The translations under genes were made by a program, and so were the position numbers. From contig PKUH01000001.1 in the NCBI GenBank assembly GCA_002869615.1, positions 1 through 64,000 on the forward strand: a DNA stretch of 64,000 nucleotides, given 5' to 3'. This DNA comes from Desulfuromonas sp. (GTDB taxonomy: Bacteria; Desulfobacterota; Desulfuromonadia; Desulfuromonadales; UBA2294). This document shows, one piece after another, positions 8,843 through 51,945 of the stretch; position 1 is the first letter of the stretch, and each line of letters starts with the position of its first letter. The notes under the pieces are model-generated. The model was not told the DNA's origin. It saw nothing but the letters and a program-made list of their open reading frames with translations, and searched no databases.

Positions 8843-10222
8843 ATGACACAAGCAACCATCCTGGTCGTCGATGATGAATTGTTCTTCCTCCGCCTGTACT
8901 CTGAACTGCTTGAATCGGATGATTACCTGATTGAAACAGCTGCATCCGGTGAAGAAGCGGTTACCAGAATCAGGCAGGGCGGAATTGATCTTGTCATGAC
9001 CGACATGAACATGCCGGGAGTCGATGGTCTCGAAGTTTTGCGGGCCTCACGAAATATCAGAAATTCCCCCGATGTCATCATGGTGACAGGCCATGCGACC
9101 ACCGAGAGCGCTATCCAGGCGCTCAAAAACGGCGCCCGTGACTACATCATAAAACCATTTAATCCGGACGAATTGCGCCATCTCGTCCATACCTGTATTG
9201 AGCAACGTCGTCTGCTCAATGAGAACAGTTCCCTGAAAAGTCAAATCGAGCTTTTCCAGAAAGGTCAGAACCTCGCTTCGCTGATCGATCTCGATCGATT
9301 GTTGCCACAATCGATCAACTCGATGCTACAGGAATTGGGCGGCGGTCGAGGGATCGCCTTCATGTATGGCAACAATTCGGCTCCGGTACTCCGTTCCTGT
9401 ATCAGCATGAACGAAAATGAAGGCCGCGCTATTGCCCAGACAATGCTCCCAATGATCGATCCGCAGGGCAGACTCAGATTCCTTGACGGAAGCGAGTTCA
9501 CCACTTCATCCGGATGGCCCGAAGATGTCAACTCCATCGGCATTCTCCCTCTTCCGTGCCAGGGCGACATAAAAGGTGCTATCATCCTCTGCAACGCTCC
9601 GGACGACCGCATGGAAACACTGGAAACGACCGAAAACCTGCTTTTTCTTTCAGAACAGATCTGTCTCGGCTTTGATAATGCCTTTCAGTTTCTCGGTACC
9701 CGCGAGCTGGTTTACACCGACGACCTGACCGGCCTCTTCAATCACCGTTATCTGCACCTGGCTATCGAGAAGGAAATCAGCCGTGCATCACGGTATGATT
9801 TGAAATTTTCAATTATTTTTCTCGACCTCGATCATTTCAAGCAGATCAACGACACGCATGGCCATCTGGCCGGGAGCAAAACCCTGACCGAAGTTGCCGC
9901 TGTCCTCAGATCATCGGTTCGCGAAGTCGACACCCTCTTCCGTTACGGTGGAGACGAATTTACGGCCCTGCTCGTCGAAACAGATGAAGAGGGGGCACGC
10001 ATTGCAGCAGAAAGAATGCGGGCCTCCATTGCCGGCACAACCTTCCTGCAGGATGAGGGGATTAATGCCAAGGTCACAGCGACTATCGGTTATGCGACAT
10101 ATCCCTACCACACCGGGAACAAGTTTGACCTGATCGACATGGCCGACAAGGCTATGTTCAATGGAAAAAAAGAGCGGAATGTCATCCGAGTTGCCAGCCC
10201 AAACAGAAGTCAGGAAGCCTGA
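8843..10222 (+). CDS. Response regulator with diguanylate cyclase (GGDEF) output
   Basis: 459 residues. Residues 1-120 form a CheY-like receiver: acidic pair D10/D11, phospho-acceptor D54 in VMTDMNMPG, T82 and K104 in the KPF motif. Residues 130-285 look like a GAF-type linker domain. Residues about 290-455 are a GGDEF domain that starts DDLTGLFNHRY and has the intact catalytic motif YGGDEF. A REVD sequence five residues upstream of it fits the RxxD inhibitory c-di-GMP site. It should make c-di-GMP when phosphorylated by an unidentified kinase. It overlaps the TPR gene by the TGATG junction, so the two are translationally coupled. Confidence 0.93.
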   Translation: MTQATILVVDDELFFLRLYSELLESDDYLIETAASGEEAVTRIRQGGIDLVMTDMNMPGVDGLEVLRASRNIRNSPDVIMVTGHATTESAIQALKNGARDYIIKPFNPDELRHLVHTCIEQRRLLNENSSLKSQIELFQKGQNLASLIDLDRLLPQSINSMLQELGGGRGIAFMYGNNSAPVLRSCISMNENEGRAIAQTMLPMIDPQGRLRFLDGSEFTTSSGWPEDVNSIGILPLPCQGDIKGAIILCNAPDDRMETLETTENLLFLSEQICLGFDNAFQFLGTRELVYTDDLTGLFNHRYLHLAIEKEISRASRYDLKFSIIFLDLDHFKQINDTHGHLAGSKTLTEVAAVLRSSVREVDTLFRYGGDEFTALLVETDEEGARIAAERMRASIAGTTFLQDEGINAKVTATIGYATYPYHTGNKFDLIDMADKAMFNGKKERNVIRVASPNRSQEA

Positions 10223-30159: not shown

Positions 30160-30188
30160 TTAGCAAGAACTAATCTTCTGCGCATAAT
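30160..30188 (+). promoter_or_regulatory. Weak candidate promoter of the tandem riboswitch transcript
   Basis: TTAGCA (30160-30165), a 17-base spacer and CATAAT (30183-30188). It would start RNA near 30195, just at the 5' strand of the first aptamer. Bases 29955-30159 upstream hold nothing I can recognise. Confidence 0.4.
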
Positions 30189-30193
30189 ATTTT

Positions 30194-30275
30194 GTCTGTA
30201 AAAGCCAAACCAATCGTGAGATTGGGACGGAATGCCACGGGTCTTCAATTTGAAGATCGCCGGGCTGCCAGGACT
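30194..30275 (+). promoter_or_regulatory. GEMM-class cyclic-dinucleotide riboswitch, copy 1
   Basis: The conserved GEMM-I core can be read: CCAAACCA, a stem CCAATC-GTGA-GATTGG with GNRA loop, GGGACGG, TGCCACGG, a second stem GGTCTTCAA / TTGAAGAT and the closing GCCGGGCTGCC. Aligned to Vibrio Vc2, base 20 is G, as in c-di-GMP aptamers, and the 21-46 pair is C-G in place of Vc2's G-C, a compensatory change. The closing stem 3' strand overlaps the terminator 5' strand, so ligand would favour read-through (inference). Confidence 0.85.
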
Positions 30276-30302
30276 TCATTAAACATGAATCCTGGTTTTT
30301 TT
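30268..30302 (+). terminator. Terminator of riboswitch copy 1
   Basis: Stem between CCAGGACTTCAT and ATGAATCCTGG, followed by seven T. Its left arm shares CCAGGA with the 3' end of aptamer 1, giving mutually exclusive structures. Confidence 0.8.
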
Positions 30303-30307
30303 ATTGG

Positions 30308-30392
30308 CATAAACCTGAAAAGACCAAACCATTCGCGAGATTGGGACGGAGAGCCACGGATCTTCAATTTGAAGATAGCCGGGCCGCCAGGG
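30308..30392 (+). promoter_or_regulatory. GEMM-class cyclic-dinucleotide riboswitch, copy 2
   Basis: A second copy with the same order: ACCAAACCA, GCGA-capped stem, GGGACGG, GAGCCACGG, stem ATCTTCAA / TTGAAGAT and GCCGGGCCGCC. In the Vc2 alignment base 20 is A, the identity associated with 3',3'-cGAMP-selective GEMM-Ib aptamers described from Geobacter, and pair 21-46 is again C-G. The 5' CCTG can pair with CAGG at the 3' end as P1, in competition with terminator 2. Confidence 0.85.
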
Positions 30393-30418
30393 AACTGAAC
30401 AGTTGCCTGGTTTTTTTT
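30387..30418 (+). terminator. Terminator of riboswitch copy 2
   Basis: Eleven-base stem CCAGGGAACTG / CAGTTGCCTGG with one mismatch, then eight T. It lies 115 bases upstream of the regulated start codon; transcripts must pass both terminators. Confidence 0.85.
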
Positions 30419-30533
30419 GGCCACAAGAAAGGAGGTAAAGAAAAAGGCTGACAAAAAAACCGGGAACTCTTCAGGGAGTGCGTTCAATCAATTTTATTTT
30501 GATGAAAACCAAACTAAACGGGAGGAAAAAACA

Positions 30534-31973
30534 ATGCACAAAATTCGTTTTTCAATCAAAATGGCCAGCCTGTTTGCAGCCATTTCCCTGGCGATCACCC
30601 CCGCCGTCCTGGCCGATACCATTACCAGTTGGGACATGTCGGACGTTTCTCCGATGGCGCCCACCAATGTAACAGATCCAGATTTCGTTTTTGACATTTA
30701 CAATTACATTGAACCGGGCTCACTGGTCGACCCTAACACCGGAGCGGTTGCAACCGGCGGCTTCATGCCAAGCGGCTATGCAAAATATTCCGGCGGCGTA
30801 AATTATCTGCCGAACGGCGCCATGACCTGGAAAGAACGTGACACCCAGGGCCCTGGCCTGAGTGTTGTAACCGGCGATAACGTGACCGGCGCCAACTGTA
30901 TCATGTCGGCCGGCTGGAACCCCGATTCGACTCCTACGGCAACCCAGATGAGTGACTGGTGGGGTGTTGACCTCAAGCAGTGTTCTGATCCGTGGCAATC
31001 GAGCAAACGCTTTAAAGTCGTCAGCTACAACCTTGATGCCCCGGTCGACCTGGTCTTCAACGTCTCCGCCAACGGTCAGGAGGATATCTACCGTGTCCTG
31101 CAGAAATATGGCAACCAGACCGGTCAGCGTGTTTCAGGCTACACCCAGCAGCTCGGTTTCGGCACTGGCGCCAATTTCGTTGAGGCTGCCCCCGGTCAGG
31201 GTCTGGCATATACTTTGAAGAACGGCACCAAGCACGACAACAATGATCCGACCCCGAGCTCCATGGCGAATCAGGGCGAACTTGATTCCCTGGTCGCCCA
31301 CGGCCTCTTTGGTGCACCAGACAAACACCACACATCGGCCGGCTACTTTAATCCGTACGTTCGTGCCAACTTTGGCCTGCTGGCCGGTGAAACCCACATC
31401 AACACCACCGGCATGCATCCGGTTCACACCGACCTGTTCGGCGAGTGGATGCCTTCAAGCAATCTCAAAGGCGCCATTTACTTCGACATGGACGGTATCA
31501 TTTACACAGACAATGCCCTGATGGGTCACTGTGACGGCGCTTTCAATGAAGAAATTGCCCAGACTGTCGGTGCTGCCGAAGGCTGTCAGGGTGAGTGGGT
31601 TACACATCGTGAATCGCTGGTTCCGATCGATAATGGCGACGGTACCTGGACGATTCCGCCTTCCCACGGCGCCGACCCGAGTGACCCTGCTTATGTCCGG
31701 AATGTTATCCCGGCAGATGTTGTTGCATCCTGGGATACAAATCCGCTCTGGATTCCCGGTGACATTGACGATTTTGCCAACGTTAACATTAATGCTTACA
31801 TCTCAGTCGGTAACGCTGCCAGCTGGCCGACTGCCGATGCCGCAGGCAACGCCAGCTTCACCATGCGTATTACCCCGACCTTTGATGCGGCGACTGCCAC
31901 AACTGAGCCTGGCACTTCCGCTCCTGAAGATTTCATCGTCTTCATCGAAGCGCCGACCACGGTTGTACAGTAG
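30534..31973 (+). CDS. Secreted protein resembling the choice-of-anchor F family, riboswitch-controlled
   Basis: 479 residues with a signal peptide ending ITPAVLA. The mature part opens TITSWDMSDVSP and has AMTWKERDTQGPGLSVV, ANCIMSAGWNPD, QCSDPWQSSKRFKVVSYNL and QLGFGTGANFVEAA. I recall these blocks from proteins annotated choice-of-anchor F; I cannot confirm this without a search. It ends without an obvious LPXTG or PEP-CTERM anchor. Two HxxxH-like patches (HHTSAGYF, MHPVHTDLFGEW) could bind metal. It starts at 30534 (GGGAGG nine bases upstream). The tandem riboswitch makes it a likely cyclic-dinucleotide-controlled surface or biofilm protein (inference). Confidence 0.75.
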   Translation: MHKIRFSIKMASLFAAISLAITPAVLADTITSWDMSDVSPMAPTNVTDPDFVFDIYNYIEPGSLVDPNTGAVATGGFMPSGYAKYSGGVNYLPNGAMTWKERDTQGPGLSVVTGDNVTGANCIMSAGWNPDSTPTATQMSDWWGVDLKQCSDPWQSSKRFKVVSYNLDAPVDLVFNVSANGQEDIYRVLQKYGNQTGQRVSGYTQQLGFGTGANFVEAAPGQGLAYTLKNGTKHDNNDPTPSSMANQGELDSLVAHGLFGAPDKHHTSAGYFNPYVRANFGLLAGETHINTTGMHPVHTDLFGEWMPSSNLKGAIYFDMDGIIYTDNALMGHCDGAFNEEIAQTVGAAEGCQGEWVTHRESLVPIDNGDGTWTIPPSHGADPSDPAYVRNVIPADVVASWDTNPLWIPGDIDDFANVNINAYISVGNAASWPTADAAGNASFTMRITPTFDAATATTEPGTSAPEDFIVFIEAPTTVVQ

Positions 31974-32021: not shown

Positions 32022-32447
32022 ATGAGAACAACGAAACTTATTATAATGGTGATGATCTTCGCATTCGCATGTGCCACCATGGCCCACGCCGGCTTGCAAG
32101 TTCAACAAAGCCAATCGGTTAACTTCACCGCTTCTGTTGAAAACAATACCGACAACAGTGTACCGGCAGCTGTTAAGCTGACCGGTTTCGATGACCGCGG
32201 CACAGTCATTGGCCACCTCTGCCAGCAAGCATGGTTGAGCGAAGGAAGGACAACTGATGTCGACTTTTCCTGGCAAGCACCAGCTTATGCCACCGGAGTT
32301 TACTGGACCTCCAAGGTTGAGGTAAACGGAGATTGTCCAAATAGTAATAATTCAACTTATGACGATGACCATCACGACGATGACGATGACCATCACGACG
32401 ATGACGATGACCATCATGACGATGACGATGACCATCATGACGATTGA
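32022..32447 (+). CDS. Small exported protein with Asp/His-rich repeat tail
   Basis: 141 residues: signal peptide ending ACATMAHA, an 80-residue globular part (residues about 25-110, rich in beta-strand patterns such as VNFTASVENNTDNSV, with two cysteines in HLCQQ and GDCPN that could form a disulfide), then a tail of four perfect DDDHHDD repeats. I know no matching family. The tail should bind divalent metals strongly. GGAGG lies seven bases before the ATG. It starts 48 bases after the riboswitch-controlled gene with no terminator between, so it is probably in that transcript. Confidence 0.8.
   Translation: MRTTKLIIMVMIFAFACATMAHAGLQVQQSQSVNFTASVENNTDNSVPAAVKLTGFDDRGTVIGHLCQQAWLSEGRTTDVDFSWQAPAYATGVYWTSKVEVNGDCPNSNNSTYDDDHHDDDDDHHDDDDDHHDDDDDHHDD
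32361..32444 (+). repeat. Four tandem 21-bp repeats encoding DDDHHDD
   Basis: Exactly four head-to-tail 21-bp units fill 84 bases up to the stop codon. Units 1-2 and 3-4 differ from each other by one silent C/T change in the second His codon, suggesting recent two-step duplication. Confidence 0.95.
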
Positions 32448-51742: not shown

Positions 51743-51945
51743 CAGAAAGATCAGACAGAGTTGCTCTCTGCCCTGCCCGTGAGGTAACAACGCCCACGCG
51801 GAATACTTTCTATCCGGGACAGCTTCAGAGGCGTGGTGAGCAGGCCCGCCGGGCAGTGGGAAGCCTGAAGCGCTTACAAGCTATCCCACCTTGTTGGCCG
51901 TCGACGTGTGGCCACGGACCCACGGCAGGATGGAGAGCTCGATTT
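51743..51945 (+). ncRNA. ssrS: 6S RNA
   Basis: The conserved 6S features are readable: a closing stem of GCTCTC and CCTGCC (51753-51776 region) with GGCAGG and GAGAGC (51924-51939), a large central bubble, and the highly conserved GGTGAGCA followed by a GC hairpin and GGGAAGCCTGAAG (near 51836-51875), which matches the E. coli GGUGAGCAUGC...GAAGCCUUAAA block. About 200 nt. 6S RNA mimics an open promoter and sequesters sigma-70 RNA polymerase in slow growth. Exact ends are estimates from the promoter and the terminator. Confidence 0.85.

Follow-up and report, generated by a model that had tools for sequence, protein, structure and literature searches.

Tandem GEMM-I riboswitches that differ at ligand-determining base 20, upstream of a choice-of-anchor F gene in a Desulfuromonadia bacterium

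Two aptamers and two terminators in one leader

In a window of 64,000 nucleotides (the whole stretch of DNA that was analyzed), two aptamers of the GEMM-I clan, each followed by an intrinsic terminator, are arranged in series upstream of a gene encoding a choice-of-anchor F family protein (Table 1). Both are full length in the covariance-model search (cmscan; E = 2e-13 for copy 1 and 5.2e-12 for copy 2) and score 61.7 and 53.6 bits, respectively, against RF01051 (c-di-GMP-I; cut-off, 35), which bears out the two GEMM aptamers of a preliminary description of this DNA. The top Rfam model for both copies is RF03167 (c-di-GMP-I-GGC), with 66.1 and 61.2 bits (cut-off, 59). Bases were given Vc2 numbers by covariance-model alignment, which agrees with the earlier alignment by hand in placing G at position 20 of copy 1 and A at position 20 of copy 2. 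Both copies have the pocket bases A47 and C92, while the c-di-GMP-type base G20 occurs in copy 1 only and the cGAMP-type base A20 in copy 2 only.

Table 1. Features of the locus, and mixed arrays at other loci of the class with the A20 copy first
Feature	Coordinates	Strand	Details
Candidate sigma-70-type promoter	30160..30188	+	TTAGCA, 17 nt, CATAAT; 9/12 matches
GEMM-I aptamer, copy 1	30195..30273	+	cmscan; G20 (30204), A47, A48, C92 (30268); pairs C21-G46 (30205/30230), C22-G45
Intrinsic terminator 1	30267..30305	+	Hairpin 30267-30295, U7 tract 30296-30302
GEMM-I aptamer, copy 2	30314..30392	+	cmscan; A20 (30323), A47, G48 (30351), C92 (30387); pairs C21-G46 (30324/30349), C22-G45
Intrinsic terminator 2	30386..30419	+	Hairpin 30387-30410, U8 tract 30411-30418
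Shine-Dalgarno sequence	30520..30525	+	GGGAGG; precedes likely start codon at 30534
Choice-of-anchor F family protein gene	30534..31973	+	479 aa; NF033657, E 2e-89
GacA-like Hypr GGDEF gene	8843..10222	+	REC + GGDEF; ~20 kb upstream of the pair
Mixed array L117	1503-1751		A20 first
Mixed array L149	1295-1581		A20 first
Mixed array L150	1573-1856	-	A20 first
Mixed array L199	297-535		A20 first

The genome holds 16 GEMM-I aptamers in total (8 with G20, 7 with A20, and 1 with C20), and when the GEMM fold is laid on them, 92.8% of the pairs are standard, versus 75% in shuffles. The C-G pair at 21-46, proposed earlier as a covariation in both copies, is confirmed as such: as the pair is either G-C (11 aptamers) or C-G (5 aptamers) without exception among the 16, the covariation is real. 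Elsewhere in this genome, the aligned position 92 is U and not C in three aptamers that have G20 and A47 (L007, L011, and L016). The GEMM-I aptamers L009 (G000:C81:12037-12114) and L166 (19-92) carry C20, a base typical of neither c-di-GMP nor cGAMP aptamers. The promoter-like site ahead of copy 1 occurs at chance level (1 found; mean of 1.4 in shuffles), and its assignment as a promoter is only a guess.

Each aptamer has a terminator of its own, as had been described, consisting of a hairpin and a U tract. Copy 1 shares G91, C92, and its P1 3' strand with the 5' arm of terminator 1, and copy 2 shares C92 and its P1 3' strand with the 5' arm of terminator 2, in agreement with the proposal that the closing stems share their 3' strands with the terminators. 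The one leader comprises two complete riboswitches, each with its own expression platform. Folded alone, the hairpin of terminator 1 has an energy of -13.9 kcal/mol (z = -3.5) and that of terminator 2 an energy of -14.7 kcal/mol (z = -2.1); a simple terminator scan detected neither hairpin, the stems being interrupted or the loops lying outside the scan rule. The copy 1 aptamer plus terminator region folds at -39.7 kcal/mol and the aptamer alone at -28.0 kcal/mol, values that belong to segments of different lengths, and by modeled folding alone the terminator state is preferred over the aptamer state. A fold of the whole leader gave long-range pairing between the near-identical repeats, which was treated as a repeat-folding artifact and not as evidence.

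As the 5' arm of each terminator takes the P1 3' strand together with C92, which pairs with the ligand in the Vc2 structure, aptamer and terminator would be mutually exclusive. In the unbound aptamer, the P1 3' strand and C92 would be captured by the terminator and transcription would stop; with ligand bound, P1 and the pocket would form and transcription would continue. As ligand should favor read-through, both copies are predicted to be ON switches, which in series would act as an AND gate, a direction and a logic that we infer from the anatomy of the leader.

The gene downstream encodes a protein with a signal-peptide-like N terminus, predicted to be a secreted surface protein. Upstream of choice-of-anchor F homologues in 12 other genomes of the order and at four loci from metagenome-assembled genomes (MAGs), no GEMM was found in the DNA examined, the sole exception being a weak, truncated-looking match of 14 bits at L212. 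As orthologues elsewhere are without a GEMM, GEMM control of this gene appears to be lineage-specific. At L071-L073, inspection by eye shows TGGCAC-N5-TTGC (sigma-54-like) upstream of the homologues instead of riboswitches. Downstream of the regulated gene, window positions 32022-32447 encode a small protein whose tail is a long run of Asp/His repeats (DDDDHH units), for which a family search gave no confident match. A 6S RNA lies at window positions 51762-51940 (RF00013, 90.5 bits).

The window also contains a GacA-like gene, the product of which has GmGacA (6d9m) as its best PDB match, with 190 bits versus 134 for PleD. It has Ser at the position of GacA S347/348, its RxxD I-site and AER arginine are intact, and it is likely a cGAMP synthase. 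A second Hypr-type gene (L092, 331-1401) encodes a GAF-GGDEF protein with Ser at the substrate-selecting position; the remaining GGDEF proteins of the genome with a readable motif have Asp at the Hypr position. The presence of GacA does not separate A20 from G20 genomes, the Ser-type orthologue being nearly universal in the order (a GacA match in 68 of 78 genomes and Ser in 30 of the 30 inspected). As Ser-type GacA is found in all 30, the capacity for cGAMP would be general and not special to this genome.

Base 20, base 48, and the kinship of the two copies

Position 20 is the published determinant of GEMM ligand choice, with A20 for cGAMP (PMC6456294, PMC9481103). In Gmet_0970, a cGAMP riboswitch, the A20G change switches the ligand to c-di-GMP, clean selectivity coming from this single base (PMC6456294). 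In-line probing of Desulfobacca aptamers shows that those with G strongly favor c-di-GMP, while in a natural A-type aptamer affinity for cGAMP has risen and that for c-di-GMP has perhaps dropped slightly (PMC9481103). The earlier statement that base 20 separates the two ligands stands as to the determinant but needs the qualification that A20 is not always cGAMP-only, as the Desulfobacca example indicates (PMC9481103). On this basis, copy 1 can be assigned confidently, from its bases, to the c-di-GMP type, and copy 2 is predicted to be either cGAMP-preferring or dual-specific. The pair C21-G46 is no argument against cGAMP, as a crystallized cGAMP riboswitch, in which J1/2 ends in A14, has a C-G pair (C15-G40) at the matching place (PMC6274999). 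The core of copy 2 (ACC with G46) has no second example among the surveyed aptamers, so that no tested relative informs on its selectivity.

Copy 2 differs from copy 1 at base 48 as well. G48 is present in 11 of 19 A20/C22 aptamers but absent from all 63 of the G20/C22 type (Fisher p = 5e-9, uncorrected for relatedness), and copy 2 carries this base, which was otherwise met in the survey only alongside A20. From A20 versus G20, together with G48, we infer the ligands of both aptamers and that they are different.

The two copies are identical at 67 of 79 positions, including the whole P3 hairpin, and are mutual nearest relatives among 232 distinct aptamers, with a score of 56 versus 39 for the next. 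In the regex-classified set, the other C21/C22 aptamers, copy 1 among them, all have G20 (19 of 19), and copy 2 is the only one with A20 on this frame. As every other C21/C22 core has G20, the A20 of copy 2 is probably derived. The pair looks like a tandem duplication after which copy 2 changed specificity, and as two changes (A20 and G48) are toward the A20 class, a shift in specificity fits better than random drift.

Tandem GEMM arrays in Desulfuromonadia

That tandem GEMMs are known, as the preliminary description had it, is documented by a 2022 survey of tandem riboswitches in 44,270 genomes, which contains 347 doublets and 12 triplets of c-di-GMP-I, read as same-ligand (PMC9481103). The logic-gate table of that survey has no c-di-GMP/c-AMP-GMP pair (PMC9481103). 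A wider literature search likewise returned no c-di-GMP/cGAMP pair; the primary cGAMP-riboswitch papers lay outside its scope, and prior mention there is possible.

Across 277 genomes of the class, a strict G20-then-A20 pattern (spacing of 66-126 nt) matched this locus alone, in one genome, whereas a looser purine-20 pattern (spacing of 71-131 nt) had matches in 64 genomes. A search of the genome set for G. sulfurreducens itself did not find it, the closest match to a pgcA aptamer sequence being 96%. Arrays were collected from pattern matches and RF01051 listings and classified by model alignment. In this sample, which is non-random and drawn with patterns that miss P2-length variants, 74 tandem arrays comprise 64 homotypic ones, 8 mixed A20/G20 arrays, 1 C/A array, and 1 unresolved. 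The mixed arrays (this locus, L117, L142, L149, L150, L158, L168, and L199) recur in several genera, and their order is A20 then G20 in 7 of 8, with G20 then A20 solely here. A mixed pair had been thought new; it is indeed absent from the 2022 survey, but seven other mixed A20/G20 arrays exist, all with A20 first.

At L117, L149, L150, and L199, a GC-rich stretch and a U run follow the A20 copy. The G20 copy has no U run, and the segment after it is complementary to the Shine-Dalgarno sequence (from folds of L117, L149, and L199), suggesting transcription control and then translation control. The genes downstream of these four arrays encode FN3-type secreted proteins. L158 (119-380) has U-run terminators on both copies, and its next gene has FN3-like repeats and CxxCH motifs. 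Where checked, then, mixed arrays precede genes for predicted exported proteins.

In fold, conserved pocket, terminator platform, and tandem layout, the pair is like the RF01051 riboswitches, including their same-ligand doublets and triplets; unlike the published c-di-GMP-I tandems, read as same-ligand, its copies differ at base 20. With the Geobacter 3',3'-cGAMP (c-AMP-GMP) riboswitches of GEMM-Ib, copy 2 shares A20, a C-G first P2 pair, A47, and C92, and a terminator-type ON switch and a GacA-type synthase in the genome (both predicted here) are also common to both. Whereas those riboswitches have A-C-U and A48, copy 2 has A-C-C and G48 and is paired with a G20 copy. Tandem GEMM-Ib pairs of G. 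sulfurreducens (such as GSU2885, omcAHG) similarly place two GEMMs before an exported-protein operon, but both of their copies are classed as cGAMP-responsive, unlike the G20/A20 pair here. Neighboring GEMM-I riboswitches of both specificities (here predicted) and logic devices are also features of the Desulfobacca acetoxidans riboswitch series; each logic device there, however, joins a GEMM to an AdoCbl riboswitch as NOT A AND B, and none of those listed combines c-di-GMP and c-AMP-GMP riboswitches in one leader.

A two-ligand gate and its alternatives

We favor, with a probability of roughly 0.6, a mixed-ligand tandem that arose by duplication and acts as an AND gate, copy 1 responding to c-di-GMP and copy 2 to cGAMP. 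Two GEMM-I riboswitches in series would control the secreted choice-of-anchor F gene of this Desulfuromonadia bacterium. Copy 1 (G20) would sense c-di-GMP, and copy 2 (A20, G48) would have shifted to 3',3'-cGAMP, perhaps with residual c-di-GMP binding; as both terminators must be read through, the gate would require c-di-GMP and cGAMP together. This reading gains support from A20 being a published cGAMP determinant, from the coexistence of A20 and G20 aptamers in the genome, where A20 (7 of 16) is a maintained class, from the A20-associated G48 of copy 2, and from the GacA-like synthase gene in the window. As a counterpoint, drift could account for a single base, the locus is known from a single genome, and orthologues of the gene are without a GEMM.

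The main rival is dual specificity of copy 2, which would make the array mainly a steep c-di-GMP switch with a second stage also satisfied by cGAMP. This would resemble the Desulfobacca A-type aptamer, which gained cGAMP with a slight loss for c-di-GMP (PMC9481103), and copy 2 does keep the C21/C22 frame of the G20 lineage, where Geobacter-type cGAMP switches commonly have an ACU core. However, copy 2 has also gained G48, met only in A20 aptamers, and Gmet_0970 is cleanly selective after one change at base 20 (PMC6456294). We consider dual specificity unlikely.

Improbable is a same-ligand tandem, in which both copies would sense c-di-GMP, or copy 2 would be decaying, with A20 as drift and the pair giving a sharper (pseudo-cooperative) response. 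It would accord with the 347 known c-di-GMP-I doublets, read as same-ligand (PMC9481103), with the 64 homotypic arrays among the 74 surveyed, and with a locus seen in one genome. Decay, however, fits poorly with copy 2, in which the aptamer is complete, the terminator is strong, and all other pocket bases are retained, and drift fits poorly with the maintenance of A20 in the genome and the recurrence of mixed arrays. Very improbable is membership in the c-di-GMP-I-GGC variant class, with a ligand altered or of another kind: although RF03167 is the best Rfam match for both copies, its consensus has G47 (we read the name GGC, from the model consensus, as G20/G47/C92), whereas both copies and all 249 aligned survey matches have A47, and RF01051 also scores both copies well over its cut-off; RF03167 was rejected as their identity on the base at position 47.

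If the mixed-ligand AND gate is correct, a single transcript would integrate two chemically near-identical second messengers, whose levels show inverse coupling in Geobacter (PMC6456294, PMC12285248), with an inverse relation reported for G. metallireducens (PMC12285248). c-di-GMP inhibits GacA via the I-site (PMC6456294), and as this site is intact in the GacA of the window, the output of an AND of both messengers would be greatest when c-di-GMP is at intermediate levels; a toy calculation of this band-pass, with assumed constants, illustrates the shape of the curve only. More broadly, and tentatively, mixed c-di-GMP/cGAMP arrays might be a recurrent, unlisted class of RNA logic in Desulfuromonadia for exported proteins, a band-pass filter working via the GacA I-site. 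Under the mixed-ligand reading, the locus would also represent natural riboswitch duplication with a change of ligand, the sister copy serving as an internal control, and two-input gates may be present among the tandem c-di-GMP-I riboswitches now classified as same-ligand, as base 20 of each copy would tell.

At L158 and L203, an A20 copy is followed by a G20 copy, both with the Geobacter-type core (ACU and GCU, respectively) and U-run terminators, and a CxxCH protein gene lies downstream. Such a pair parallels, in nature, the engineered A20G switch.
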